This document shows, one piece after another, positions 2,475 through 49,800 of a stretch of 64,000 nucleotides of DNA. Source of the DNA: Lineus longissimus (taxonomy: Eukaryota > Nemertea > Pilidiophora > Heteronemertea > Lineidae). The notes under the pieces are model-generated. The model was given only the letters and a program-made list of their open reading frames with translations, made no database searches and had not been told where the DNA came from. Every line of letters starts with the position of its first letter. Within the stretch, counting starts at the first letter, position 1. The position numbers and the translations under genes are program-made. The DNA lies in the NCBI RefSeq assembly GCF_910592395.1, contig NC_088324.1:11062953-11126952 (forward strand), read 5' to 3'.

Positions 2475-4040
2475 AATGAATGAATGAATTTTATGAATGA
2501 ATTTTATTACTCAGACCTTAATAAAAGGTACAAGAGTACCAAAAGGTAACATAATAACATATATACAAGTGAGAAATAAAGGAGGAAAGCACCTATCCTC
2601 TATTAACATTATAATTTCTAAAAAAATTCAAAATCTTGCTGCAAAAAATAGCTTATTTCTTAAGTTTTTGTTCTGATGTTTGGTTTAAAGATGTACTAAA
2701 TTTGAGCATATTTGGACGGTGGAAAAAAATACTGACCAAGGTATCTGTATCTGTCCATTTCAAAATGTGGACAGACAAGTAGGTAATGGAATTCATCTCC
2801 AACATCATTTTTATCACAAAGTTGACAAGTATTATTTAACTCTTGGTTATTGCCATTGTAGTTTCGACCTCTAACACCTGGAAGCTTGTTGTTTCCTAGT
2901 CGGAATGAAATTTGTGCTTTTACCATAAAATCAGGAAGATCAATCAAGTATTTCTGGATTTCAAACTTGTTGTCCTCATTACACAACGACCTGTACACAG
3001 AGCACTTGGGGTGATCAAATATATCACTTATACAACGTTGCTTAGATTGATCTGTGAGACATTGATTAATTTTACATTTTAACCATGAAGGATTGACTTG
3101 GTTTCTTTCAACCCATAAATAACCAATTCCACAATTGTTCAAACTGGATTACAGCATGCAGTAAACAACTTTCCCAGACAACTTAAAATAGTAATACCCC
3201 TATAGTTGCCAGGGTCCTGTTTGTCACCTTTGTTTTCATATAGCGCTTGTATAACACCAACAGTCCAAGCTGAGGGAATAACACCAGTTTTTCGGACTAG
3301 GTTGAAAAGTTTACAAAAAATTCCAATCATATTACCCTCCGAGGCTTTGGTGTGCTCGTTTGAAATGTAATCAAGGCCCTGAGCTTTACCATTTTTAAGC
3401 TTCTTAATAGCTTTTCTAATTTCCTCAATAGTAAATGTCTTGTTCAAGATTTCATTTTCATTCCCGAGTTCTATGTTGATGTTTCCATCGACTGCATGAT
3501 CCGGCGGAGCCTGATTTAGATTTTTGAAATGGTCATGCAATACTTCTTCGGATATCTGTTTAAAGATATCACTAGACTTCTTACTTTTATTACTCACAAT
3601 AGCCCAGTATTCCTTGGGATTGGTACTGCGTAAGTTTCTAATTTTCTGATCCACAGCTTTCTTGTGTTTTCTGTAACACCTTTTCATAACCATTTTGTAC
3701 TCTTTACTTGAACGCTTCAAATTATTGAAGTTTTCAGTGTTTTTTACCTGTCTGTACTCCTTTTGAGCTCTACAAAAAAGTTTTCTGGAGGCCTCACATT
3801 CTTCATTGAACCAGTCTTTCGTGACATGTGCTTTTTTCTTTTTGCTGTTTTTCCTTTGAGAACCATGTAAACCATTGACATTTTTTGGAAATGACAGGAA
3901 AGAAGCATTACTAAAAACAACACCTATTCGATCAACCATAATGTCCCCACGGTTAGGATGATGTGATATGTATGTAGTAATTCCCAACGGCAGCCAACCT
4001 GAGAGATTACTACCTACAACCTTCCCCATGCAACGTATCC
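2475..4040 (-). mobile_element. Degenerate non-LTR retrotransposon (LINE), internally deleted
   Basis: On the minus strand the first ORF (4029-3139) ends in an N-terminal reverse-transcriptase region with recognisable LINE motifs: a segment reading KNGKAQGLDYISNE, then NYRGITILSCLGKLF, the start of the RT fingers. The next ORF (3142-2696) is the far C-terminus of such a protein, with a zinc-knuckle-like CQLC...H...C pattern (CQLCDKNDVGDEFHYLLVCPHF region). The intervening palm domain with its catalytic Asp residues is missing, so the copy is dead. The 3' end at about 2475-2510 carries short ATTC-type tandem repeats, as in CR1/RTE-like LINEs. It seems inserted at the edge of the satellite array. 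The clade assignment is tentative. Confidence 0.85.
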
Positions 4041-4065
4041 CACACCTCGCATTATTTCAAGTTCT

Positions 4066-7272: not shown

Positions 7273-10200
7273 TCAAAATTCATCATGATCTTGGACGGGT
7301 TTTGATTTCTCTTTTGAAGGATGAGGATAGGCCCAGAACGATGATGCTCTTCCGTTGATATCACGCTCCCTTTTGGCAAAACTTGAGAACGTCGATACGC
7401 AGTTCGCGATGAAATGGTCTGCTTGGGCGAGAAGGTAGAGATCGAGGTGAGGGCTGGAGGGCTCGTAGCGGATTACCTTAATCTGGAATGATAAGAATTA
7501 TATGGTCAAGACGATGAGAAGACAAGAAGAGAATTGCCAATTGTCTTGCCCAGCTTGCACGGACGAAATGTTGTAAACATTGTGATGTTGATGCTCACCA
7601 TCTGAAGGCAAAGACTATTCAGTGGCGTGTGCAGCGGCCTTCAAATCAGGAGAAAGATTTATGACCAAGCTGGCTGTTGATTTCTCTAAGGACGTGTGGA
7701 CCTTGAACCGGATGAGACTGACTGACGATGAATGATGTGACTATACTCCCCTAAGGATTAGTACCCAACTGATAATGGACAGCCAAGGTGGTCATGGACT
7801 GGTTATGCTGATCAACGCTATTGGGCATTTGTCAATGAATCATGATTCATTTTGTCAGCTGACAAATTGATGAGTGTTTGGCTGTGTATTAACAAATGCG
7901 ATTAGACTAGGTTGGAAGGCAGTTGCAGGCAGAATACTGACAGGACCATATAGCCTGCCATGTGTCCTTTGGACAATCATTCTGATCTCAGTCTGGAGAA
8001 TGCTTGGCACCCAACTCTAGAGAGACAGAAACTAAAAATTTAATTTTTCAATCAATTTGGGCAACAGCCGAGGAAAATTCATCAATTTTCTCTGGCCTGG
8101 CAGACAACAATAACACAGCAGACTTCACCCAAATTACGCTTGGCGAGACGAGATATTTTTCCTTGATTGGGACATTTTACAGAGTATTACTGAATACTGA
8201 TTTCTGTTCTATGATCGCCGAGGGATTCCCAAATAGCCATCTATCTTGTAACGCTTGTTAAGATTTGACAGCTCAGCCTTAAACGGTTCTTCGAAGATAA
8301 CCGAAAGTGATGAAGAAGCGGCTGTAACATTGTGAACTGACCAACAAACAATCATATCTATGTGGTTTTTGGTTTTTCTTATCGACTTGGACAAATTGCC
8401 AGCCATAATTATCACTGTGTTTGGGTTTTCTACATGATAAGACAGAAAAGCATGCATGCGATCACTCTTTGAAGTTAGTAAAACCGAATTTGATTGATAG
8501 GCTGACTTAATCTCTAACCATATATGAATCTCCAATACCCACTGACTCATCAGAAAACTGGCCTTGGACAATGATGTCTGTTGGACTGAATGGCAGTCAG
8601 TTGTCAGCCAATTCAGTCAAATTTCCAAAGAAGTATTGAATACATCATCTGATTTTACCCTCCTTGCCAAAAGTGACTCATAAAGATATCGACAACTGTC
8701 AACTATAGGGACGGTTGTCGAACTACATGGACCATTGTTTCAGCTTAAATTAGTTGGCAAATATTGCCTTCACATATCCCTGGTGATTTATAACATCTAG
8801 ATATGCATGTCTTGTAACATGTATCAGTTCCTATATCAGTCCGAGCACGATGGATGGTCTCGGGAATGGTCCCAATGGGGCAGAGGGAAATTAGATTGTT
8901 CTCCTGTTCTTGGTGGAACTTTTATCATGGACGACAGATTGTCCATAAATGTATCTATATTTACAATTACCAGTTGGCTAAATCAACTGTATCAGTTTAT
9001 TACATGGGATGTTGAAAGGAATAATGTCTCTTCAAATACATGTACATTTGAACTACAGCAGTCCGAAAACTGAAGGAGACTTCCGAGACAAATTCCTTTG
9101 CTAGGGATATTTTGAAGCAACGTCATACCATCCCAGCCCCGCAAACAGTTAACAGCCCGCAGACCAATTCATAACTCGCACGTCAAATAATCAAATTATT
9201 ATCAGCAAACGATTCACTCAAAATCTCATCTGAATACAACGTAACGCCATTTACGTCTTTATCAACAATATCCCATAATCTAATAATACGGCGGAAAAGA
9301 AATCATCGACTCAATAATAATTTTCAGAAATTCGATAAAGTACCATCTCGATGATAAGGAGATGCGCCTGAATAAAGAGATTACGGGATATTAAGGATCT
9401 CATCTCTTCCGATGTCACAATCAAGTCACAGAATCAATAACTCAATCACAATTTTCATAAGTGCGACTTTGAGATTCGATCAACTTTTGACACGCTCATG
9501 TGAAGTGGGGGATGATTGAAGAGGTATCCAGTCAATTAGAGCATCATTTGAGATTTGTCAATCTGATGTTACTATCTGATATAAAACGATGATTTGGTCA
9601 TAGTTCCGAAAGTGTTCAGCAAATTGGGTTGAGTTGCTGGGGAGAAATTTAACCTGGACGATAGACTGGGGACCTCATCCACTATAACGGAATACCAAGA
9701 ATGTAGTATTGGTGTCCATTATAGAGGTACTGATTGTCACATCCAGTTGTCAAATGTGGTTAATCTATTTTTTGGCAATGAAAATTACAGAAAATATCTA
9801 GCATGACCTACATCACACTGTTGTGTACAGAGCAGTACCCAACGATGCATATCATGAATCACTGGATGCACAGCAACTGGACATGATGACCATTACAGCA
9901 GCAAACGATTATGATGACGATATTGATGACGTTTTTGATGATGATGATGATGAAGAAATCCTATCCTACCACAGTATGCCTTCATATCAGTCTCTAAAAT
10001 ACACCCAATCGAATATTTGCCGATGCAAGTGTATTAAAGAAACTATCCTGTGGCCTTCTATGAATGGATGGAAATCCGTAAGCAAAAAAATAAATGTTAA
10101 ATAATACACACTTTTAATGATTTTAGATATTTTTCAAACTCTGGAATCATGTGATTCGAATCCGCCGCAACGAATAGCGTCTTTGCTTGTGTCTTCTTGG

Positions 10201-13200
10201 CTAACTCTTTGACTTGATACAAGATAGTCTTTGTTGTAGGGAAGCACATTTCCTGAGTGAGCGTGCCCGGTTTGGGATGATGACCAATACACTGCGGGGA
10301 GGCAAACATATTTGGGATTCGGTCGTTGATGTGTTCGCATGTTCTTTCCTGGAAAGATATGAGAATGAAGAAAAAGATGATAATTTTTAGTTGTTGAATG
10401 AGAGAAAAGACCATGGCCAGTTCTCATCCAGAGATAAATTTGGTTTCTATGCCTAATCCCAAAAGATTTTCCACTTTGACATATCTCAATAATAGCCCTT
10501 TTCGAATTGCAATTGACTCATGTATCAATGCAAATGATGCCTTTCATCACAACTTGACACATTCAGAAGAAACAGAAACCTCAATAGCAAACTGCCGCTG
10601 TTAGCGATATTAGCGGAGAGCCCTCGATGAGCATAGCTAGCTTCGTTGAGAGGCTAAGTGGCAGGACCCATTAGCACAGCATCAAAATATCCACAATCAA
10701 ACAGCTAGCATGATAATGACAAGTGTTGCACTTCAAAACCCATGGAAATCATGCGTCGACATCATCAGCAACAAATGCAGTGATGACGATTGCAACACAT
10801 GCGCTAACTCTCAAGCAATGTAATGCCATTAGCTCCTCATCTCACCCTTCAAGCAAAGAACCATTATCTTTACTGCTGATGACTGTTCCATCAAAATTTT
10901 GTAACGCCACTGTAAGGCATCAGATTCCAATGGGATGAACGGATTCGTAGTTATTCACAGACTATTTATTACCCCAAGGCTGTATTTTCTTCCCGGGGAA
11001 GGGGAGCTCACTTCGATGAAATGTTTTGAGCATCCCTGTACCAAAACATGTGTGACAGTTTAAGCCATGGTATGTTGTATTTGATGTCCATGCCAGGGCA
11101 ACTAGAAGACCCTGCACAGGTGGTCAGTAGCCATGTTAGATTTGTACTTCTCATGGTCAACAATGGATGATACCCTTCGACCTTTTGATAACCAACATCA
11201 TTCCCCATCCCACTGCCTTGGTTGATCTTCACATGTCCTGGATGTCAGCACAGTGACCTAACCAACAGGGCTCAATGGCTCTTCACCAAACACCCACATA
11301 ATACCACTGATAATACATATAGGAAATGATTGAGATCGGAAAGAAAAACATCTCTATTTGCCTAAGACCCTGAGCTATATTGGATAATCCTCCGGGGAAA
11401 TATCACAAAAATAACAGAACAGGGATGATCCATGATTTGTTTATGAAATCGCCAGACTGTTTGCCAACTTGAGCGCTCTTTCAGACACATTATTTGTCAT
11501 AGTTGGGATCAGTTGGTTATATTTCAGACACATGTCTTGTCATTTGAGATGCACGCCAGACATTCAGTTAGTTTTTGGTAACGAATCTGGCTGTCCTAAG
11601 TTCTGCCACAGAGCCCCAGAGCCCCAGCATTCCTCTGTATTCTTCATTTGTAGGGAGCAGGAATGAAGCATGGGAGCTGAATTCTGGACTCCAGTGGAAG
11701 TTTCAGTACTGTTGTTACTGTGACAGCATTCTGTCATAAGAAAAGTTCACGTGCAATGCTATCAAACATCGAGAAGACAGCAGTGACGTGGGAAACCTTT
11801 CAACGCCCCAAACCACCACCACTTTCTATCAAATCAACGACAGACACAACCTGAGTGCACTTGTCACATATAATATCTAATATATGAAGAGATCGACGAT
11901 CAATGGGCGTATATTGCTCATCTACTCCAGGTAAGCCATTCTCTTCAACACTGACAACCAGAAATAAAGTAGCTTTTAAAGGGCTATGCCGTTCGTAATA
12001 CTGGTGGTCCAGGAAAATGTGACGCACTACACAATGCCTGGTGCAGTTATTATGAACATGAATTCACTGCAACCTGGTATTTATAGTATTTGTATATCTA
12101 TATACACAACAGCAATGCTGAAATTTATGTTTACTGCGTATTCACAAAACAACACTTTACCTGAAGAGGAAATGATGACTTTCAAACTACTCGAAGAGAA
12201 GTAGTGCCAAAAGCAAATACTTAAACGAATGGCTCAGTTGTCCAATAACGGAAACTGAGAGATGATCTTGATGACACTGCATTACATTGAAAACCCTTGA
12301 CGAAACAACGACTGTATCAACAGCACAGTGGTCCAATAATGCAAACTGAGAGATGACACTAAATGACACTAAATGACACTTCACTGAAAACTTGTGACAC
12401 AACTGTAGCTGCATTACAACCATTTCAGAAGTTCTTTTTCAAGATTGCTGGAGTGCTACAGTGAGAATATAGCATCTCCAATTGGCAGGCAGCCAAAGTC
12501 ACTTAGTTGAGGTTGGTAGAAGGCGACTTGAATACCAAGGCTGCCCTTCACATTTTGGCCATATAAGTGTTGTATAATGGGCTGATATGGAATCTCATTT
12601 AAAATTGACAGTTGATTTCACCACGGATAGTTCAGGGGCCGAGGGCATCAATTCGTCCAACTACATGTACACTGTTAGAATGAAAATCTACTAACATGTC
12701 TAGTTTGGCTGAGTGTAAATAGACTTTCAAAGCCTTAGACAGTTTATCTAACAATATATAATCACAAGGTAAATATCAGTAAGTTCAGCTCACCCAATCA
12801 ACACCATTGCGAAGATGAATCCCAATCCATGGTCCTTCGGGGATATATTCTTGTATAAATTTATCACCTTGCTTGGTGATTTTCTCATTCCATATCAAAT
12901 ACTGCTGTAGTTGCCAATCATCCTCGGAGATGGGGAAGTTTGCTGGTGCACCAACGAACGCCAGCACGAGATGATGCTCTGCAGGGTATCTGGAACAAAA
13001 GATAGGAAATTTGCTGACCTGCTGAACACTTGGCTAAGGTTTTATTTACCTCATAATTCTTTATAAATTTCTCATATTTTCCATTAAAAGAAGCAATATC
13101 AAAGGTTTGTCTCTCAACCTTGATGTCACAAGCAGTTCTATGGAAAGATTGGTCTCTTTTTAGAAATTTTGGTGGTCCTGAAAAGAACCGTTGGGGATAT

Positions 13201-16200
13201 TTGCATTCACTCATCACTCTCATCATCCTCGGAGTCGCTCAACCGTTCAAAGCGCTCCACCTTGTCCTGCAATTCCAACATCTCTGCATGCTTGGAGAGT
13301 GCATATTCGCGGTACGCAGCTCTGACGCCCTCTAGCGTGACTTGTTGGAGTCGCAACGTGTACATCCAGGAACGTCGCATCTCGATTGTTGCTTTCACCA
13401 GTCGTTTATTTGTTTCTAGCAACTTCCTGTCCAGGATTACAACTTGCTCGCCAGCCCTGTACATCTTTCGCTCAACCTCCCGCAGCTGAGACCGGATCTT
13501 GGCTGTTAGCGTCTGACGGTTGTAGGCCATGGTGAGACTAGTGGGGAAATATTAACTTGAACTTCTGTGACCTGAACTGAGACCTGTGACAAAGACCGAG
13601 TTTTGTGACCTAGACTGAGTTTTGTGACCTAGACTGAGTTCTGTGACCTGGACTTGTGATCTGTGACCTGGACTTGTGCTGTGCGACCTGGACTTGTGCT
13701 CTGCGACCTGGACTTGTGTTCTGTGACCTGGACTTGTGTTCTGCGACCTGGACTTTGAGTTTGTAGTGGACGACTCAAATCGAACAAGACAAATATAGCT
13801 TCACTTTCGTTAGGGTTGGAAAACAACTGATGAAATCAAAAATTACAAACTATTTTATACCCGTCCCCAGGAATTGCCAGTGTCACAAGGTAATTCACTG
13901 ACATTTGATAAGATTCTGTCAAATTTGTCATGATAAAATTACTGAACTAATCTGTCAAATATGAGTAAACATCACCCTAATTAGGCAAGCCCATTAGGCC
14001 TTTGTTCATTAATCAATACACCTGTTAATTAACTCACCTTCAAATGACTATCAAATCAGAGAAGCAAGCAAAAATGCTAATTAGAAGTTAATTACCCCCT
14101 ACAATTAAATTCCTGTAAAATCATGCAATTACCCATTCATTATTTACACTTATTTTCATCAGGTTTTAATTAGTGATTTTATTGATAAGTCAATAATTTG
14201 GTACAGCTTGACTTGTGATTTTAGTGATGAAGTGAATAAGGTCACACATATAATTGTAGATGATCTGATAATCGAAATTCCCATAATAACATGTTGACAG
14301 GTTCAAACAAAACATGATGTGAACCTTAGGTTGAAGGCTTGGTGATGTTATAGGAATATGTCAATATCTGACTGAGGAATCTACCTGACATGAAGTGGGG
14401 TATAAAACCCAGGGCTGGAAATGCAACCTCACAATCCATTTGACCACCACAGTGTTAACTTAAGATTTATCCCAAGTCATATCTCAATTAACTTAAGTTA
14501 TATCCCAAGTCACATCTCGGAAATCTTCAAGAATGGAAGTCATGGAAGCCGACATTGATGTTCTCTTCGAAATCCAAGACACCGAGCGAAAGATTTTCAA
14601 GGCCTGTGAGCAAGTCCTCCTGATCGACAGAAAACTACAAGATCTACAGAAGCGATTCCAGGTGGCGACTACCAACGGACGGCGAGCCTCCCGCTACAAC
14701 CTGAAGATCCAGATCGTGACCTTGGAGGGCGTGAAGAGAGCCTATCATACATACACCAACCTCAAGGCCGAAGAAATTGCAGAAATGACCGAGAAGCTGT
14801 ACAACGAATCAAGCACCGAAGATGAGTTCTATGACACCGATGAGTGAGATGAAAGATCAAGATCCTGCTTCAAATGGTTCTTTTCAGAACCACAAAATAT
14901 TTTCAAAGAGACCAATCATTAATCACATCTGCTTGAAGAAATGAAAGATTGAATCCCTCAGGTTTTAGCTACAGGCATCCTGACTCCCAAATAGAGTCAT
15001 AATGTTAAAATGATTGATTTAAATGCTGTACGCAACTTGACACAAGAAAGCTCCGAGATCGGCAACGTGTGGGGCAAGATGGCTGTACAGTGAAAAGTTT
15101 TGTCACAGAGTAATTAAGAGGCTTGACTGTTCATTTTTACTTACTTTCTTAACCACTTTTGCATTTGTCGAGGGTTTTTGGCATCAAACTGTAATGGTTG
15201 GTAGAACTCTGACTTTTCAAAGTCAATACTGTACGTATCCCAAAATGGGCCAAACGGATTGCCGTCTTTGGCATTGCAGTCTCCCTTGGTTGGACCATGG
15301 CGCGGATAATAACAATATGCTGAAATAGAAATTTGCTCTGATTGAAATCGCAAACATGATGAACAAGAGACAGAGTACATTGAAATAAGTTCTATGTATT
15401 TTTCTGGCCAGAGTGCATTTTGCACTATCCAATCAAGGTTACTTCCCTTCATTCTGTTACCAATATCACCACACATTTTGAGATTTGCCAAAATTCATGT
15501 CCCCCCCCCCCCCCACCCAACACAGATACCGAAACTTTTGTACTGTCAATATCACCATACCTGTCCGTTGGCCGGCTGGCCATATACTTGGAGCAAGCTC
15601 CGACATAAAATCTTCCATCGTTATAACGCGATGATACTGTTTTATTGGATCCACTTCAAAGTAAGTTTTGAAAGGCACTTGGACCTAAAAGAAAGGAGGC
15701 TTATTACAAATTGACACTTCAGTTGGATGCTGAGCAGTACAGTGTCTTGAAAACCAACCACTCAAGACGGACACTGGACAAAGTAATTATAAGGACATTC
15801 CCAGTGTTAAAGCAAGAATTTCTCATTAGGGAGTCAAACCAGCAGTTTTTAAGTCGATTTCAAATAAAAAATTAGAACTTTCAATAATAAATTTCATCAC
15901 AGCTGGATTTTCTGAAGCAAAACATCACATTATTATAGTTGAGCCACCAAGGATTAAGAAAGACAAATCTTTATTAATTCTTGGCCATACTTACAGATTT
16001 ATAGCTTCCAGGTCGATACTCGACGAAGGGAGGTAGCACCAAAGTTCTATTTACTGCACGGGCAAACGAGAGTGCCCCCAAGTAGTGATCGGCTTGGTTA
16101 CCAAACCGACCTGTTAAATATAAAACAAAGATATAGCATCAATTTGGGAAAAGTGAGGAGGGCGTCTTCCCTGAATATCGGGAAAAGCGGTTTTGGACTT

Positions 16201-18199
16201 CTTCAACCAGACAACCTTTTTTGTTTCCATCAGCTAAATAGATGCAGAGAAGCAAGACCATCTTGACAGGGTGCTTTTAATATATGGTATTTTAATCATT
16301 TTTTAGAGCCAATTGTAAGCCTGTCGCATTGTTGAAGCTAACGAGTTTGGCAGGGCGCGGGGACTCTAAAATTAGGCTTAACTTAACAGTTTATAACATA
16401 GCATATGCCATTCTTCAATCCCATAACAATTAATTTGAGCCAGATTACAGAACAGATATCGAAGGATTGAATCACTGCCACTGACATCAAAATATAATGC
16501 AGCCGTTGCTGGTGAACGACTCTATCTCGGAAGATGACAGATCGGTCTCGGGATGGTGAAACAATCGATAGTAGGCCAATATGGTGATAAAATTGACAGC
16601 GGGCCGGGGATTCAGAAATCAAGATAATTGTCTCACTAGTTTTTTTAAATGTCTATGGATAGATGTAAGCAATTCTCTAAGTCTCCACAACAGTCCCTAG
16701 TTACTATTGTGGAAATGGTCTGTTTTGGTACCAGGGATTCAAGACAAACCAAATATGATCAATTACAACATGTAAATAAAAGCTGTCACATAATTAGTTC
16801 AACGTCAGCTGATGACTCCAAGGATCAAAATTGCCTTGCTCCATCCTGAATGCCCAGCGAGACAAAGAGGTCATCATTTGTTACCAACAGGCCTCAACCA
16901 ATCCACAGGTTTTTGCCATAACTCCTTACACCACTCATCTGGCACAGCAGGGACCACACACTGTCACAGCTTGACCAATCATCATTTGATAGCATGCCCA
17001 GCCAATCATATTGACATGCCGTCCGTACAAATCATACCTTCAACCAAAATTCTGGTATATAACTTATAAAGATTCCTTCATTTTGAGCAGAAAGACAAAG
17101 TTGCCAAGCTGACATTGTTATAACACAAACCGCCAATTGAAAATACCAAACAGATTTTATAGTCAAAATGTTAAATCCTGGCGGTGCCATTTTAGACAAG
17201 CTCCACACTGAAACGATTTAAGCGATATAAATTTCACAAATAATGACATTCAGGAAAGTGCCTCATATTGTTCAGCACTCGTAACTTATATGTCATTGGA
17301 TTTAGCTCCGCCAATTCAGATTAAGAGTTAGATTAAAACATCCAGTATCTTTTTGGATAGGATTATCTTATGACACAAACTTTGCAGATAAATGTTAGGA
17401 ATTTCTGAGAATTTAAAATACTGTGTAATTATACTTTGTATCCAACTTTTAATCTTTATCAATAACGGAGAGATTTAGCATTTGTTACAAATGTTAAGAG
17501 ATTCTGGCTTGTTGTTGCATTCAGTTTTTGCACTGAATCCAGAGACTTGAAACTGTCCATCTGGGGACAATAAAGGATCTTGAAATCACGAAGAATTCCA
17601 TGGCAGGTTTGATGGCTCTGTCAGCTGATTGGTCAGTTCTGGTTATGTGCAAACCGTACGAACGGCCTGTCAGGGATATCAGCTAATGTTAGTCAATGTC
17701 ACACTGTCTCATGCTTTCATGTGCCATGAACATGCAAGCTTCAATGGTGACGAAAACAAGGACATAGTTAACTACCGTACTTGTTTAAAACGATAAGCGC
17801 AATCACTGAATTAGCATCAAATCCCCCATGAATCCTTTGAAAAGTGGCACCTATTCCGTGATCGGGGAATGCAAACACATTCCCTTTGATGCTAGCATGC
17901 ACAGGCAGTGTGTGTCACTGTGGTACATCCTCTAGTACAGGTGTAGATGTGTACTGTCACTACAGTACTGCATGGTGATCATGTATGATGATGTACTCTG
18001 CATAGCAAATTTTGATAATTTTCAAAGTCAAATAACTATCGAAAAAAACTGCTGCAAGTGATCAAAACTGGTGTTTTCACTTACCCATACATGGACAGAA
18101 CAGAATGTATCCCTGTTTGTCGACATCAGCACCGAATACGGGATATAAACAGCAAATTATTGAGAGGAAAACGAGGAAACCCGACACGTCCTCCATCAT
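7273..18199 (-). CDS. POFUT1: GDP-fucose protein O-fucosyltransferase 1
   Basis: Seven exons join in frame to 390 codons (human protein 388): 18199-18085, 16110-15995, 15684-15561, 15319-15145, 12989-12794, 10348-10112 and 7482-7273, all with GT/AG ends. Exon 1 gives a signal peptide ([17 protein letters not shown], cleavage near VFGA) and CPCMG. Exon 2 continues [11 protein letters not shown], the N-terminal family motif. Exon 4 carries EGNPFGPFW-like [11 protein letters not shown]. Exon 5 ends [11 protein letters not shown], whose Arg is the GDP-fucose-binding catalytic residue. Exon 6 has MFASPQC and FVAADSN, and exon 7 [22 protein letters not shown]. The protein ends HDEF, matching the KDEL-like ER retention tail (RDEF in human). 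The enzyme adds O-fucose to EGF repeats of Notch and similar proteins in the ER. Intron 4 contains two other genes. The gene is divergent from the SIRT4-like gene. The first of two adjacent ATGs was taken as the start. Confidence 0.96.
7483..10111 (-). other. POFUT1 intron 6
   Basis: A 2.6-kb intron with a phase 0 junction. The short ORFs inside (for example one at 9823-10104 with a run of Asp from GAT repeats, and one at 8209-8571) show no recognisable domain. Nothing else was identified. Confidence 0.8.
10349..12793 (-). other. POFUT1 intron 5
   Basis: A 2.4-kb phase 0 intron. It has short low-complexity stretches (for example AAATGACACT repeated near 12356-12378) but no gene or RNA that I can support. 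Confidence 0.8.
13151..13163 (-). promoter_or_regulatory. Histone-downstream-element-like site of nested gene A
   Basis: Read on the minus strand, 10 nt after the stem-loop, the sequence is CTAAAAAGAGACC. The AAAGAGACCAATC core is shared exactly with the site after nested gene B at 14905-14917. Purine-rich elements here (CAAGAAAGA in sea urchin, AAAGAGCTG in mouse) pair with U7 snRNA in histone pre-mRNA cleavage. Confidence 0.75.
13174..13189 (-). terminator. Histone-type 3' stem-loop of nested gene A
   Basis: Minus-strand GGTTCTTTTCAGGACC forms a 6-bp stem (one G-U pair) with a UUUC tetraloop and is followed by ACCAA. It lies 17 nt after the stop codon. It meets the metazoan replication-dependent histone consensus (GG-C base of stem, U-rich 4-nt loop, ACC flank). 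Confidence 0.88.
13207..13530 (-). CDS. Nested gene A: small coiled-coil/acidic-tail protein with histone-type 3' end
   Basis: Single-exon ORF of 107 residues inside POFUT1 intron 4, on the same strand as the host. The start has a strong context (CACCATGG). The protein is mostly predicted helix, charged, with a core from about residue 16: [18 protein letters not shown], then [20 protein letters not shown]. It ends in an acidic tail ([10 protein letters not shown]). It is paralogous to nested gene B (about 30 identities over 68 aligned core residues, no large gaps). I recognise no known family, and it has no histone-fold signature. Transcription signals are a TATA box at 13859-13851 and an initiator-like TCAGTT at 13830-13825. 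The 3' end shows a histone stem-loop and U7-like element. The 5' UTR of about 300 nt is largely a 20-bp tandem repeat. The context suggests an S-phase-regulated mRNA, and the function is unknown. Confidence 0.85.
   Translation of the reverse strand: MAYNRQTLTAKIRSQLREVERKMYRAGEQVVILDRKLLETNKRLVKATIEMRRSWMYTLRLQQVTLEGVRAAYREYALSKHAEMLELQDKVERFERLSDSEDDESDE
13560..13758 (-). repeat. 20-bp tandem repeat in the 5' UTR of nested gene A
   Basis: Six units in perfect 20-bp register (13641-13755; plus-strand unit CTGTGACCTGGACTTGTGNT) and about three more degenerate units before them. They lie between the presumed transcription start (about 13828) and the ATG at 13530, so they would be transcribed into the leader. 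Confidence 0.85.
13825..13859 (-). promoter_or_regulatory. TATA box and initiator of nested gene A
   Basis: Minus-strand TATAAAATA at 13859-13851, with TCAGTT at 13830-13825. The A of the initiator lies 31 nt downstream of the TATA start, the canonical RNA polymerase II spacing. Confidence 0.7.
13870..14400. promoter_or_regulatory. Shared divergent promoter region of nested genes A and B
   Basis: About 540 bp separate the two TATA boxes. The interval has a cluster of TAATTA/ATTAAT cores at about 13978, 14008, 14026, 14077, 14087 and 14166, with a related CAATTAAA at 14102. These resemble homeodomain binding cores. No CCAAT box or histone octamer was seen. Confidence 0.45.
14401..14431 (+). 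promoter_or_regulatory. TATA box and initiator of nested gene B
   Basis: TATAAAACCC starts at 14401 in a G-rich context, and an initiator-like TCACA has its A at 14431, exactly 30 nt downstream. The implied leader is about 100 nt and contains two copies of a roughly 30-bp block ending TATCCCAAGTCAYATCTC (about 14457-14518). Confidence 0.72.
14533..14847 (+). CDS. Nested gene B: small coiled-coil/acidic-tail protein with histone-type 3' end
   Basis: Single-exon ORF of 104 residues in POFUT1 intron 4, antisense to the host gene and divergent from nested gene A. The core matches gene [19 protein letters not shown] at about residues 18-35, then [14 protein letters not shown], then [13 protein letters not shown] near 63-75. 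It ends in an acidic tail ([12 protein letters not shown]). Helical and charged throughout the core, with no signal peptide or membrane segment. The first ATG of the ORF follows the TATA-directed start by about 100 nt, so it is the likely initiator. The mRNA should be intronless and end at a histone stem-loop, and no AATAAA occurs in the next 250 nt. Not a known histone, function unknown. An S-phase chromatin or chaperone-like role is inference only. Confidence 0.85.
   Translation: MEVMEADIDVLFEIQDTERKIFKACEQVLLIDRKLQDLQKRFQVATTNGRRASRYNLKIQIVTLEGVKRAYHTYTNLKAEEIAEMTEKLYNESSTEDEFYDTDE
14876..14891 (+). terminator. Histone-type 3' stem-loop of nested gene B
   Basis: GGTTCTTTTCAGAACC is a perfect 6-bp stem with a UUUC loop, preceded by CAAAT and followed by ACAAA, 28 nt after the stop. 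It fits the replication-dependent histone mRNA consensus without mismatch in the stem-loop. Confidence 0.92.
14904..14917 (+). promoter_or_regulatory. Histone-downstream-element-like site of nested gene B
   Basis: CAAAGAGACCAATC starts 12 nt after the stem-loop. Its AAAGAGACCAATC part is identical to the site after gene A although the flanks differ, which suggests selection on U7 pairing or a related processing signal. Confidence 0.75.
15320..18084 (-). other. POFUT1 introns 1-3
   Basis: Three introns: 15320-15560 (241 bp, containing a run of about 15 C at 15502), 15685-15994 (310 bp) and 16111-18084 (about 2.0 kb, the first intron). No further genes were identified in them. Confidence 0.85.
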
Positions 18200-18611: not shown

Positions 18612-20147
18612 ATGGCTGGAACAATCTGCAGGGGATCTTTCTACAAGCTTCAAGGACTTGGCCTCCAACAATCGTTAATCAGAACTTTCTCCTTCTCCCA
18701 ATCTTCAATGGCAAAGATCCTGCAGGAACCTAATCTACGCTTTGTCCCCGAGAGCAACCCAGTTCTGGAGAGTGATATCAAAACTTGCAGACTTTGTTGA
18801 AAAGCACAAAAGGATTTTCGTCCTTACTGGGGCTGGTATGTCAACTGCTAGTGGAATACCTGATTACCGATCAGAGGGGGTGGGGCTCTATGCAAGGGGT
18901 GACAAACGCCCAATTCAACATGGAGACTTTTTAAAAAGTGAGAAAAACCGGCAGAGATATTGGGCTCGAAATTATGTTGGCTGGCCCAAATTTTCATCGG
19001 TCTTGCCAAATAGTGGACACAAGATTCTTAGTGACTGGGAAAAAAGGAAGAAAATCTCCTGGCTTGTGACCCAAAATGTTGATGCTCTTCACCACAAGGC
19101 TGGGAGCAGGAACGTGACTGAGCTGCATGGTTGTTCTCACCGGGTGGAGTGTTTGCAGTGCGGTTCTGGCATGATGCGTCATCGGCTCCAGGAGTTGATA
19201 GCGGACATGAATCCACACTTCCATGAAGAATCTCTTGACATTGCCCCAGATGGTGATGTGCAGCTTTCAGATTATCAAGTTAGGAGTTTTCAGGTGAGTT
19301 CACTTGTGTCCATTATGTTAGAGGAAACAAGAGGCGCGCAGGAGCCAGGTAGGTCAGACTAAGTTACACAAAGACGCCTGTAGGGGCCTCCCCTCTCACA
19401 GTACATCAAAACCATTCATGGTTGTATGAGGAATAAAATGATTGCTCAATCAAACACAACCCGTGCCCCAAACTGCTCATACTAGTCACCCAAAGACCGC
19501 CAATTGGACCCCCTGGCATTTGCCTGCAAACCATGAAAGGAATAAAATGCTTTTTATGTACATGTACTTACTTCCCTTCTTTCAGGTTCCATCTTGTCCT
19601 TCTTGTGGCGGCGTCCTCCAACCTCAGATTGTATTCTTTGGTGCCAACGTTGCCAAACCCATTGTAATGTTCGTCTTCAGGAAAGTGGAAGAATGTGACA
19701 GCGTATTGGTCCTTGGGTCTTCACTGGAGGTGAGAATTTTATTGTCCTTTTTTCTGATGGTGATTAATTTTCGAACTCAGTCAGAGAATAGGCAGGTTTT
19801 GCCACCCTTTCAAATGTGAAAGTACCCTATTGGATTAGATGATTGTATTATGAACTACAGACACCATTTTAAACTCTAAAGTCTCAATTAGTTCCAGTTT
19901 CACATGTTTTCTTGAGCTCTATTGCCAATGAACAATTGCTAATGATATGATATCTCTTCACTCTTGACAGGTTTACTCTGGGTACAGGTTTGTTGTTGCC
20001 GCCTCAAAACGTGAGCTACCGATAGCCATCGTCAATATTGGCCCGACACGTGCCGAGGACCTAGCCACAATCAAAATCCGTGGACAATGTATGGACGTAC
20101 TTGAACGGACTGATGCTCTCTTGCAAGAACGATTCAAAGCCAGTTAA
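18612..20147 (+). CDS. SIRT4: SIRT4-type mitochondrial sirtuin, with a one-base frame disruption
   Basis: Exons 18612-19293, 19586-19729 and 19971-20147, with phase 0 GT-AG introns, encode about 333 residues (human SIRT4 is 314). The N-terminus is Arg/Ser/Phe-rich like a mitochondrial targeting peptide. The NAD-binding motifs are [22 protein letters not shown] and TQNVDALH; the catalytic His is in ELHGC. The zinc Cys pairs are CLQC (exon 1) and CPSC (exon 2). The C-terminus has GSSLEVYSGYRF and [10 protein letters not shown], typical of SIRT4. The start-codon frame runs to SDI and then stops at 18800. The conserved frame continues at [11 protein letters not shown], so the AAAA at 18780-18783 holds one base too many (or two too few). 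This could be a base-calling or assembly error, a polymorphism, or early decay. An AATAAA at 20355 follows the stop. SIRT4-class enzymes act as NAD-dependent deacylases/ADP-ribosyltransferases in mitochondria. Confidence 0.9.
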
Positions 20148-27373: not shown

Positions 27374-28744
27374 TTAACTTTTGTTATTCTTATCATCTTT
27401 GAACTTGATCTGTAGGGGATACTGGCAAAGTGCGGACTTGCCATTCAAGATCTTAATCACCTGGCAAGCTTCGTTGTAATTTGCCATCGTAACAAACCCA
27501 TAGTTTTTACCCTTGTTGTTCTTGTGGTCGAACATGACGTTAACTTTCAAGACGGTGCCATATTTGCCGAACAATTGCCATAACTGATGCTCTTGGGTGT
27601 CGGGTCCGATGTTGTAAACAAACAAAATATGACCTTCCGCCTCCGCCCCAGAGCCAGTGTCCATGAAAAAGTCATCATTCTGGAAATTCTGATTCATGGC
27701 GCCATTATTGAAACCACCCCTTGCGCCAGCACCCTGTTGGAAGCTACCGCCCCCTCGGTTGCCACCACGTGGATTTGCAAAACCATTCCCCTGACCATAG
27801 TGGCTGTACTCATCAAAATAATCACCACCACCACCAGCGCCATATCCTTGATTATTGTAACTGTTCTGAGCACCACCGCGGCCGTATCCTTGGTTACCAC
27901 CGAAACCACCCCTGGGGTTTCCTTGATTGTATCCACCACCGCCTCCGGTTCCATAGAAGCCACCACTATTGTTATTGTAGCCGCCCTGACCCTGCATAGG
28001 GTTGAAGCGATTCCCAAATCGTCCACCTTGGTTCCTCATCGGGCCACCAAATCCTGGGCCGCCACCTCCACCCATTGCGTATCCACCAAATCCTCCTCCA
28101 CGTCCACCACCACGGCCTCCTCCTCGTCCACCTTCATGACCACCAGGTGGCGCCCGCACCTTCGAAGCATTATCCTGGGCAAACCTCACAACCAAATTCT
28201 TCCCCACGCCAAGCACATCCTTCCCATTCATATCATCAATGGACTGTTGGGCTGCGTCCTTGTTCTCGAACAATACAAACCCCGTCCCCTTGCATTCGCC
28301 GGTCTGATTGGTCAAGATTTTGGCCTGGATTATAACGCCATACGGCTTAAACAAATCTTCCAAATTCAACTGCGTCATGGTCGATGGCAGGCCCTGGACA
28401 TAGAGATTTGTGTTTTTCGTAGATTCACCGGGCGGCCTCGCGTATGCAACTTTCAGGGTCTTCTCCTTCAACTGCAAGCGATTCAAGGTTTTGATTGCCT
28501 GCTCAGCATGTTCCGCTTCACCATACTCAACGAAGCCGAAACCGTAACTCCACCCGGTGTGCTTGTGCCGGATGATTTTGCAACTTTTGACAGGGCCGAT
28601 TGCCGCGAATAATTCCTTCATGTCATCGTCGTTCAACTCCTGGGGAAGGTAGTTGACAATAAGGTTACACTTGCTATCTTTACCAGAGAAATTATGCTGG
28701 TAATTTTCTGCATTACAGTTGTCCTGCGTATCCATGTCGGTCAT
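27374..28744 (-). CDS. ELAV/Hu-like RNA-binding protein with RGG/Gly-rich hinge (intronless)
   Basis: Uninterrupted ORF of 456 residues with the ELAV layout RRM1-RRM2-hinge-RRM3. RRM1 (about 26-103) has RNP2 LIVNYLPQ and RNP1 SYGFGFVEY. RRM2 (about 112-190) has NLYVQGLP and KGTGFVLF. RRM3 (about 372-450) has LFVYNIGP and KNYGFVTM. ELAV/Hu proteins bind U-rich or AU-rich elements in mRNA and control stability and splicing, often in neurons. Unusual here is a 170-residue hinge (about 197-368) very rich in Gly with RGG, GGY and Asn/Gln stretches, much longer than in typical Hu proteins and suggestive of phase separation. Canonical ELAV genes have several introns and this one has none, so it probably arose by retroposition. 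It is paralogous to the gene at 45876-46877. The start is the first ATG of the ORF. Confidence 0.93.
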   Translation of the reverse strand: MTDMDTQDNCNAENYQHNFSGKDSKCNLIVNYLPQELNDDDMKELFAAIGPVKSCKIIRHKHTGWSYGFGFVEYGEAEHAEQAIKTLNRLQLKEKTLKVAYARPPGESTKNTNLYVQGLPSTMTQLNLEDLFKPYGVIIQAKILTNQTGECKGTGFVLFENKDAAQQSIDDMNGKDVLGVGKNLVVRFAQDNASKVRAPPGGHEGGRGGGRGGGRGGGFGGYAMGGGGGPGFGGPMRNQGGRFGNRFNPMQGQGGYNNNSGGFYGTGGGGGYNQGNPRGGFGGNQGYGRGGAQNSYNNQGYGAGGGGDYFDEYSHYGQGNGFANPRGGNRGGGSFQQGAGARGGFNNGAMNQNFQNDDFFMDTGSGAEAEGHILFVYNIGPDTQEHQLWQLFGKYGTVLKVNVMFDHKNNKGKNYGFVTMANYNEACQVIKILNGKSALCQYPLQIKFKDDKNNKS

Positions 28745-45875: not shown

Positions 45876-46877
45876 TTAAGTTTTCTTATTATAATAAGAG
45901 ACTTGTAGCGGCTTGTCGATCATGTAGTAACGGCCATTTAGAGCCGCAATGGAATTATCCGCATCATGACCATTTGCCATGGTAACGAACCCATAATTTT
46001 TACACATATTTTTGGCATGATCCCAAATCACATTTACCTTTAACACACGACCGTAAGCGGAAAATAGCGACCATAATTGTCGCTCCTCCGCGTAAGGTCC
46101 AATATTATAAACATACAATGTGTAACCCTGATTGTCTCCGCCGTTTGCACAAAAACTTCCAGGGGGCGCTGGCATACTCAGACCACCACCCATCATGGGA
46201 TTGTAACGATTTGGATAACGGAAGCCTTGGTTTCTGATTGGCCCACCAAAGTATCCTCTCGGTGGCGGCGGAGGTGGGTGCAACATCGGTGGCGGTCGCA
46301 CCTTCTTGGCGTTTTCTTCGGCGAACTTGATGTTGAGCGGTTCCGGTCCTCCCGGTAGCATCTTGCCTGTCATTAACTCCATGGCTCTCGCAGCCTGATC
46401 CTTTAACTCAAAGAGTACAAACCCAACGCCCGTACACTCTCCACCCTTATTCGATAAGATTTTACAATTGATAATTGTCCCAAACTCTGTGAATAATTCC
46501 TCCAAGTCCATCGCAGTGATATTTTTTGGCAACCCACGAATGTAAAGATTTGTTTGTTTACTTTGCTCCCCCTGGGGGCGAGCGAATGCAACTTTTAATC
46601 TCTTGTGTTGATATTCCACACCATTTAGTTGCTCTATCGCCATCACAGCATCCCGATTATGATCATATTCGACGAAACCAAATCCGTAACTATACCCTGT
46701 ACTGCGGTCACGTATTATTTTGGTTTTCGTGACATTGATTGGCCCAATCGCCGCAAACATTTCCCTAAATTCTTGATCAGAGAGAGTCTGTGGTACATAG
46801 TTCACAATCAGATTCGTACGCGTATCCTCGCCGCTGACCGTGTCATGGTCATGGTCGGTATCCATAGCAGCCATCAT
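45876..46877 (-). CDS. ELAV/Hu-like RNA-binding protein, short-hinge paralogue (intronless)
   Basis: Uninterrupted ORF of 333 residues, close to the usual Hu protein length. RRM1 (about 21-100) has LIVNYVPQ and SYGFGFVEY and a small insertion in the loop before KIIRD. RRM2 (about 109-187) has NLYIRGLP and GVGFVLF. RRM3 (about 252-330) has LYVYNIGP and KNYGFVTM. The hinge (about 194-250) is Pro-rich (HPPPPPP) and keeps a GGPxRNQG...NRxNPM block also found in the hinge of the paralogue at 27374-28744, so the hinge of the two genes is homologous although the RGG expansion is private to the other. Role expected: binding of AU/U-rich mRNA elements. It lacks introns, like its paralogue, and lies 17 kb away on the same strand. 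Two start ATGs lie close together (MMAAM), and the first was used. Confidence 0.93.
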   Translation of the reverse strand: MMAAMDTDHDHDTVSGEDTRTNLIVNYVPQTLSDQEFREMFAAIGPINVTKTKIIRDRSTGYSYGFGFVEYDHNRDAVMAIEQLNGVEYQHKRLKVAFARPQGEQSKQTNLYIRGLPKNITAMDLEELFTEFGTIINCKILSNKGGECTGVGFVLFELKDQAARAMELMTGKMLPGGPEPLNIKFAEENAKKVRPPPMLHPPPPPPRGYFGGPIRNQGFRYPNRYNPMMGGGLSMPAPPGSFCANGGDNQGYTLYVYNIGPYAEERQLWSLFSAYGRVLKVNVIWDHAKNMCKNYGFVTMANGHDADNSIAALNGRYYMIDKPLQVSYYNKKT

Positions 46878-49800
46878 GAATGTAACGGGAGATCACAATA
46901 AATGGAGAAAGTCCAAGATGGCAGTAATGCGATAATCCCAACGGACAAAATGCAAGTTCTAGCACAAGTTCAAATCACAGCCTGTAGCCTTTTCACAGCT
47001 TTGAAAGAAGATGGCGAAATACTTCTTCCAGGTTTACTGAAGGTCCAGTATTTGAGGTAACTGTTTGATGTTGGACTAAAGTTCAAATCCCAGATTGTTA
47101 TAATCCAGGAGTTTTCTCACAGTACACTGGCTGATCACAGATTTGAGGTATGGAGTTCCAAAGACGACAGTGGTATCCTGTGCAGTCCTTGAGCCTTCTT
47201 TAGGCCGGAAAAAAATTGAAAAAAAAGTTAAAAATTTATGTACGAGTGCTAACTGCCCATATTTACCACTAGAAAAGAGAACAAAAGAATGTTAGCAACA
47301 AGCGATCAGTGAAATAAATACTTGCACCTCACCGCAAGACCCGTACAAATAATTCAAATGGAAAGATATCATAGACCATGAGCAATCTTGCATTTTTTTC
47401 TCAAAAGAAACGTCTCCTTGGCACCATTACGAGACACTCCCATTTCAAATATTGCCGTGAGCCAAGACCTTTCTCAGGTGGCGGTCTATGAGCAGTTGTT
47501 TTTTTATAAAACACAACAGCCAACTGGTGCAGAATTGACTTTCTCTGGACTTCTTGAAGGAAAATGCAGGATTGGTCATGGACCATAAAAAACGTAAGGG
47601 CAACATCAAATGATGTGATATGCGACTACGAGATGTTCATTCCATTGGCATTGCCCTGAAGTTATCCAATGCCAGCCCGAGTTTCAGTGTTTCAAGTTTC
47701 ATATCAGACCTCCCTCATCTTTTAAAAAAGACCATTGGTCATCTGCCACTTTATACACACCATTAGTGCTAACCTTTAACGTCGATAATGAAAATCTTCA
47801 GAGACAAAATGAACCCTCCCAAGTCCACATGAATTGCAACTGATGAATTTTCGGCTCAAAACTTTCGAAACGATTGATAACGAAACTGAAACCTGAACGA
47901 AGACATTCTGTCATGAATATTTCCTGTTTTTAGTTTATAGAAGAGCTACAGTTGTTTATCTGCTTCCTGGCAATAAGAGTTGGGAGGAGTCATTTTGTGC
48001 ATTTGAATGCAAAATACATATAATAGGAGATTGCTGTAGACAAGTGCTTGAGGATAAGGCAAAAGCTCAAGACTTTTAAACCAGGACAGCGAAATCTGGC
48101 CTCGAACCTTCAAACCAAACATCCACTGAATCCCACAATCTTTTGTTTTCAGTGACTTCATGTAGCAAGGTGAAATAACTAGGTTTTCCAACAGATAAAA
48201 AAGGAAAATAAAGCTCAAAATAAAACAATATCATGTATCCTACTATAGAAAACATCATTTCAGAAGGTCAGGATGCCGAGATAATCACTTCTTCAATAAT
48301 GATGAGCACCATTTTGTGTAAAGGTCACCACACAGCCAAGTGCCCTTACAATGACAATGACTAATTACAAAAGTAAGGACGGTATAAATCATGTCATTGT
48401 GCAACATAAGCAAAACAAGAAATAAAGAAGTAACAGGAATAAAATAAGTCAACAAAATGTAAGAGAGTAACCTAATATTATTCAAGAACAGATCATAATT
48501 TTAAAGGAATTTTTGAACAAAAAATGTCTAGTACAGCCAATGTCTAGACGTTGCACTTGACTTACAGTTACACTCAAGTGGGAGTACATGTCACATATGG
48601 AACGCAAAAGTAAGTTGTGTAAAAATCTTTGAAAGTGGTGAGAAAAAAATTCCCCTTACCGTCTCTTGAAATATGGAATTGGCAGAAAAATATTACTGAA
48701 CTTCTGAAAAATAAAAAAATAAAAGATATAAAAAGTCTGGAAATCTTCATGGGAAAATCTATTGACATGGTGAAATGGTTGGGAAAAACTGGAGCTGTAC
48801 TGGCAACACTAATAGCAACTCATCGTGTTGCTTCAGTGCAGTGACCCCATAGGGGAAGCAGGGGTGTCCCCCTCCCGGGGTGAAAGGTGTTGAGCCCTGG
48901 ACTGGGTCAAGTGTGAGGAGACAGGCCCATGGATGGTTGGTTCCCGACAGCATGTTCTGTGGCAGTTTAGCGAAGACACCATTATCCATGCAATTGTAAG
49001 GCATCCCTTGACCACTCTTTCCAAACTTGACCTTTGCTGGACTTCGATTTTAGAAGCTTGAGAGGCCAAAATCCTCCTGAGATCACAAAAAGGATCAACT
49101 CAACATCCATGAGAGAAGAAGAAAAGAGATAACAGTTGGGTCACTAGAAAATTATCCACTAAAAATATATATTTCCATTCTATATATAGACGGTTGATAG
49201 CAGGGCAACGTATCCCAGATAGGGCCTCGCATCACTTTTTTAATGGACCAGTGCTCATTTAGCACTGACATTGTACATCTTTTTTTTAACAACACCAACA
49301 TGATCTCCGCTTATGGTCGCAGTGCGGTGGCGTTGTTATGGTTGCAACTATTTGGCGATATCACACAGAGATTGGACACTTTATTACATCATCATTATCT
49401 TATTTCTATCTTGCACCACACTATATTCATAATCAGTCATTAATGCAGTGCATAACAACAGGTTCATATACCTTGAGAATGACTCAACCAGCACCTCTTC
49501 TGCATAACAATCCACATGATGATGTGTAGACTGTAGAAGTGTAGTGTATTTTGTACTGTCAGTGTACATTGATACACACAATACACAAAATCCTGCGCAA
49601 AATCAGTCACTTCCTCTTGCAATAGCATATCCCGAAAAATTTCTGCAGTTACAAAACCTACAGCAAAATGAGCATATCTGTGCAAATGTGCAGTAAGGCG
49701 GTTACCTAAAGAGGAATTTTGACGAGATCACAAGGTCAATTTAGATGTCGAACAGGTGACAGACGGATCAGAAAAATCAGCCTCGCCAGCCAGACAGCAT

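Follow-up and report, generated by a model that had tools for sequence, protein, structure and literature searches.

We analysed a window of 64,000 nucleotides (64 kilobases, kb) from the nemertean Lineus longissimus (contig NC_088324.1, positions 11,062,953 to 11,126,952) and describe here two short genes, gene 1 and gene 2, that lie within one intron of a POFUT1 gene. Each coding region is followed by a stem-loop and a downstream purine element of the type found at the 3′ ends of replication-dependent histone messenger RNAs (mRNAs), and neither product is recognisably a histone. The features of the locus, in window coordinates, are as follows.

12990..15144, minus strand: POFUT1 intron enclosing the gene pair, 2155 nucleotides, GTAAGT ... 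TTCCAG
13147..13159, minus strand: downstream element of gene 1, AAAGAGACCAATC, exact, with an AAAGAG purine core
13174..13189, minus strand: histone-type stem-loop of gene 1, GGTTCTTTTCAGGACC, 6 base pairs with loop TTTC, 17 nucleotides past the stop codon
13207..13530, minus strand: coding sequence of gene 1 (P0001, 107 residues), intronless, with an acidic tail
13854..13859, minus strand: TATA box of gene 1 in GGGTATAAAA, 329 nucleotides upstream of the ATG
14401..14406, plus strand: TATA box of gene 2 in GGGTATAAAA, 132 nucleotides upstream of the ATG
14533..14847, plus strand: coding sequence of gene 2 (P0002, 104 residues), intronless, with an acidic tail
14876..14891, plus strand: histone-type stem-loop of gene 2, GGTTCTTTTCAGAACC, 16 nucleotides, 28 nucleotides past the stop codon
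14905..14917, plus strand: downstream element of gene 2, AAAGAGACCAATC, exact, with an AAAGAG purine core

The enclosing intron has GT and AG termini, and the exons that flank it, when joined, encode 124 residues that all align in one stretch to solved POFUT1 chains (best E value 7.5e-31) and match the Pfam O-FucT model (44.3 bits). An earlier, preliminary description of this DNA had placed the pair inside POFUT1, which these results bear out; the positions and lengths (107 and 104 codons) of the two divergent, intronless reading frames are likewise as it gave them. Each gene is a single uninterrupted open reading frame (ORF) that aligns along its homologues. P0001 and P0002 share 43% identity over 77 residues, and GC content at third codon positions is 0.63 in gene 1 and 0.65 in gene 2, compared with 0.40 overall in positions 12001–16000. 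Between the TATA box and the ATG of gene 1, at 13580–13760, inspection by eye shows a run of short tandem repeats resembling tgtgacctggacttg, so that the 5′ leader of this gene would be long for a histone-type mRNA. Beyond the two loci, neither tblastn of 33 family members (see below) nor a six-frame profile search gave a significant match to the family in the window, the remaining matches being short and having E values of 0.05 to 1 (tblastn) and 4 to 9 (profile).

The stem-loops had been reported as 6-base-pair stems with a UUUC loop placed 17–28 nucleotides past the stop codons, and are found exactly so at both genes. A search of the 64 kb with the pattern GGYYCTTTTCAGRRCCAC, allowing up to two mismatches, returned two matches, both exact and both at these genes, against 0.01 expected. 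The two stem-loops differ by one base, and the 13-nucleotide block downstream of them is identical. This identity was claimed in the preliminary description and stands; the spacing of 10–12 nucleotides given there does not, as by our own count the purine core starts 13–14 nucleotides past the stem. The description had also argued that the shared block speaks against chance. That argument holds in so far as both copies of AAAGAGACCAATC are free of mismatches and lie in register with their stem-loops, and fails for the block taken alone: at two mismatches AAAGAGACCAATC is found three times in the window, close to the 2.86 expected by chance, so that its weight comes only from position and exactness. 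Such near-identity of the 3′ ends beside coding regions that are 43% identical is the pattern that selection acting on the 3′ end would produce.

Comparison with the Rfam histone 3′-end model (RF00032, Histone3) gives 35.9 bits for gene 2 at 14871–14916, above the gathering score of 34. No further match at the gathering score occurs elsewhere in the window, in which no search was directed at histone genes themselves. The predicted mature ends of both transcripts, taken to approximately the cleavage site, fold at minimum energy into a 6-base-pair stem with a UUUC loop. The shuffle z-scores of these folds are unremarkable (−1.36 and −0.73), and the argument therefore rests on sequence and not on fold stability.

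The preliminary description had proposed a profile search with both proteins, and had predicted that they belong to an undescribed family. A first protein search found one relative at E ≤ 0.001 (P0003), a three-row profile found 5 proteins at E ≤ 10, and a seven-row profile recovered 30 at E ≤ 10, of which 29 also pass E ≤ 1e-7. The family set comprises 33 proteins, namely these 30 together with P0001, P0002 and P0007, the last from the three-row profile. Its members share a core in which DRKL and TLEGVR are conserved and in which only 1 of 31 aligned rows has a gap (core residues 24–89). Judged by its hydrophobic pattern, the protein would have an amphipathic helix at approximately residues 9–35; its second half is less clear in this pattern reading. 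Most members end in a short acidic C-terminal tail, and the C-terminal 14 residues are acidic in the 10 members for which this was computed.

The family is real and has no name in the libraries searched. None of the 33 members has a Pfam match that reaches the cut-off (the best, to DUF1392 in P0001, has an E value of 0.0016 and scores 19.1 bits, the cut-off being 25), there is no significant match in the PDB (best E value 1.5 for P0002 and 0.094 for the family profile), and the best NCBIfam E value among the 8 of 33 members scanned is 0.019, far below the cut-off. Identity with a known family was considered and rejected, these Pfam, NCBIfam and PDB matches being weak and scattered over unrelated families. 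No relatives were detected in prokaryote contigs (84,980 species) or in viral contigs in two scans of each, using short-peptide-pattern scans that can miss distant relatives, and the family for this reason looks eukaryotic.

A tree of 31 rows, from which P0032 and P0033 were excluded, resolves a gene-1 group (P0001, P0006 and P0014; support 100/99), a gene-2 group (P0002, P0003, P0004 and P0007; 98/98) and a 19-row group (96/98), together with several long branches of unsure placement. P0003 is 74% identical to the gene 2 product over its full length, with the final 13 residues identical, and P0006 is 69.5% identical to gene 1 over 82 residues by tblastn. For P0003 and for P0006 the source is in each case one contig with a length of 4088 bases. 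This is probably one and the same contig, which would then carry the counterpart of the gene pair in another animal and suggests that the pair itself is conserved.

The homologues were assessed from their proteins, by scanning all 33 sequences for residues that a paired histone-type stem-loop could encode if it were read through, with T, C or A as the third loop base. The scan matches exactly three homologues, P0004, P0021 and P0028, each once and each in a tail that extends past the usual end of the protein. P0021 ends RFFSEPQNV and P0028 contains KALFRAST; read in one of its three frames, the 3′ flank of gene 2 gives LFRTTK, and LFRA is what the homologue has. It looks as though a single stem-loop had been translated in a different frame in each of the three tails. 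P0004 continues with KRGQS, which in our reading agrees with the downstream element after a single base change, AAAGAGGCCAATC. When whole proteins were shuffled (2000 rounds, all 33 sequences), 1838 rounds gave no match, 156 gave one, 6 gave two and 0 gave three. With shuffling confined to the tails, matches numbered 17, 7 and 18 per 20000. The carriers, putative in the case of the homologues, fall into the gene-1 group (P0001), the gene-2 group (P0002 and P0004), the 19-row group (P0021) and a long branch of unsure position (P0028), a spread that speaks for an element either ancestral to the family or retained for a long time. From these peptide-level signs, the histone-type 3′ end looks like a family trait.

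We considered whether the hairpins could have arisen by chance beside spurious ORFs, given that short ORFs are frequent here (27 of at least 60 residues overlap positions 10000–18000). We reject this explanation, to which we give practically no credence, on the combined grounds of 0.01 stem-loops expected in 64 kb, a protein family with 30 matches, and three matching tails in 0 of 2000 shuffles; the third-position GC content, which is well above that of the region, also stands against it.

A different possibility is that the proteins are extremely diverged histones with a hidden histone fold, in which case the 3′ end would be a matter of ordinary inheritance. Their size (100–107 residues), intronless structure, divergent TATA-driven arrangement and stem-loop are all histone-like, and the VTLEGVRxAY stretch of the family is, by eye, faintly like the VTAMDVVYAL stretch of H4. 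Set against this, no histone model appears among the Pfam matches of the 33 members at E ≤ 1, in agreement with the preliminary description, according to which the proteins resemble none of H1, H2A, H2B, H3 and H4. Alignment of the 31-row family profile with typed H2A, H2B, H3 and H4 using hhalign gives probabilities of 0.1–0.2%, a weak test in that the control of H4 against H3 also reaches only 0.8%. The suggested N-terminal amphipathic helix and the acidic C termini also speak against a histone. We consider a hidden histone identity unlikely.

We propose, with a probability of roughly 0.8, that both ORFs are functional and belong to an undescribed family of eukaryotic non-histone proteins whose mRNAs are made in the manner of replication-dependent histone mRNAs. 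The stem-loop of histone mRNAs is bound by SLBP. In histone genes the U7 small nuclear ribonucleoprotein (snRNP) pairs with the downstream element, of which AAAGAG is the purine core (PMC7026596), and cleavage takes place about five nucleotides past the stem of the pre-mRNA (PMC6303110). By analogy, each of the two intronless genes would be transcribed from its own TATA promoter, and SLBP and the U7 snRNP would cut the pre-mRNA some 4–5 nucleotides past the stem-loop, with U7 pairing to the AAAGAG element. The U7 partner would be a 5′ end containing CUCUUU, ideally ..GGUCUCUUU.., and the resulting mRNA would end in the stem-loop, lack poly(A) and be stable mainly in S phase. Processing by SLBP and U7 is likely because the stem-loop and purine element are both present, at a spacing of 13–14 nucleotides, and because the predicted ends fold as the stem-loop; the absence of poly(A) and the coupling to S phase are likewise likely by extension from the established histone pathway.

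What the protein does is a more tentative matter. It could be a factor that is largely helical, probably dimerises, bears a CK2-site-like motif in its acidic tail and is produced together with histones as their partner in chromatin or in histone supply, although we regard this specific role as doubtful. The acidic, serine-rich tail presumably resembles the tails of histone-handling proteins, and a cell would gain by producing such a protein at the time when histones are made and by placing it under the decay control that acts on them.

Several observations count against the proposal of histone-type mRNAs for this family. The RF00032 score of gene 1 (31.5 bits at 13148–13194; E value 1.4e-6 in 2.3 kb searched) is below the gathering score. 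The uncut gene 1 strand folds best with the 5′ arm of its stem-loop paired to the downstream element. In the roughly 0.7 kb inspected past each gene, AATAAA occurs at gene 1 alone, at 13041–13046, about 160 nucleotides after the stop codon, and would make polyadenylation possible there. With respect to the homologues, the three tails were spotted by eye before the scan was written, and a peptide compatible with a stem-loop is not the DNA itself. The preliminary description had named homologues lacking the stem-loop as evidence that would speak against it, and the outcome is divided: three homologues have compatible tails, whereas 28 of the 31 give no support or could not be assessed, most of them ending before the place of the element, and P0027 and P0032 (the latter chimeric by eye) extend past the usual end without it.

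As a separate observation, the pairing of the 5′ arm with the purine element on the minus strand at 13147–13189 is possibly a switch and possibly a by-product of two conserved motifs.

The AATAAA after gene 1 would fit mRNAs with dual ends, cleaved at the stem-loop in cells that divide and polyadenylated in others. There is a precedent in H2A.X, the mRNA of which is reported to undergo dual processing (PMC7807067). H2A.X is alike in that its stem-loop use can be dual, as that of gene 1 might be, and unlike in that it is a histone and the window products are not recognisably so. Neither AATAAA nor ATTAAA occurs in the approximately 750 nucleotides scanned after the gene 2 stop codon, which tells against dual ends, and we judge them somewhat unlikely.

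The sub-threshold score of gene 1, the 28 homologues without support and the fact that the element has been seen as DNA in two copies only would also fit a one-time capture of a histone 3′ end by duplication, the element being a neutral passenger without function. Such a passenger is hard to reconcile with the retention of the stem-loop and the 13-nucleotide block while the proteins diverged to 43% identity, and with compatible tails in three homologues from different parts of the tree. We find this account highly improbable and continue to favour functional, histone-type 3′ ends.

The two genes resemble the replication-dependent histone genes (H2A, H2B, H3, H4 and H1) in being short, intronless, TATA-bearing and arranged as a divergent pair, and in having a 6-base-pair stem with a UUUC loop and ACC/ACA flank followed by AAAGAG 13–14 nucleotides downstream. 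They differ in that their products match no histone in the searches made and have an acidic tail, and in their location within an unrelated gene's intron. Likewise, with respect to RF00032 the 3′ end of gene 2 passes the curated score and that of gene 1 falls just below it, whereas the model describes histone mRNAs and the coding parts here are not recognisably histone.

Other features of the window lie outside this pair. Near POFUT1, on the plus strand at 18679–19362, is an ORF with a Sir2 domain (114.7 bits) that by eye is SIRT4-like. Two uninterrupted minus-strand ORFs, of 456 codons from stop to stop at 27374–28744 (RRM_1, 183.4 bits) and of 338 codons from stop to stop at 45876–46892 (RRM_1, 162.5 bits), each have three RRM stretches and are ELAV/Hu-like by eye; ELAV/Hu-like RRM genes usually contain introns. 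Two ORF pieces on the minus strand at 2696–4056 appear by eye to be a broken non-long-terminal-repeat retrotransposon reverse transcriptase, and have no Pfam match at E ≤ 0.001.

In the literature searched, with most subscription papers outside the search, we recognised no report of a non-histone protein family with a histone-type 3′ end. What appears to be new is not the processing system, which is known, but that a whole non-histone family uses it. On balance we lean towards the broader view that an entire non-histone animal family has SLBP/U7 processing as its ancestral mode of 3′ end formation, is made in step with DNA replication and acts on new chromatin as a partner that has so far gone unrecognised. 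Were such a 3′ end established for a conserved family outside the histones, the rule that reserves this signal for histones would be broken, and the family would point to a protein that is needed in proportion to DNA synthesis. It also offers a candidate, open to direct test, for a new partner in histone supply or chromatin assembly.

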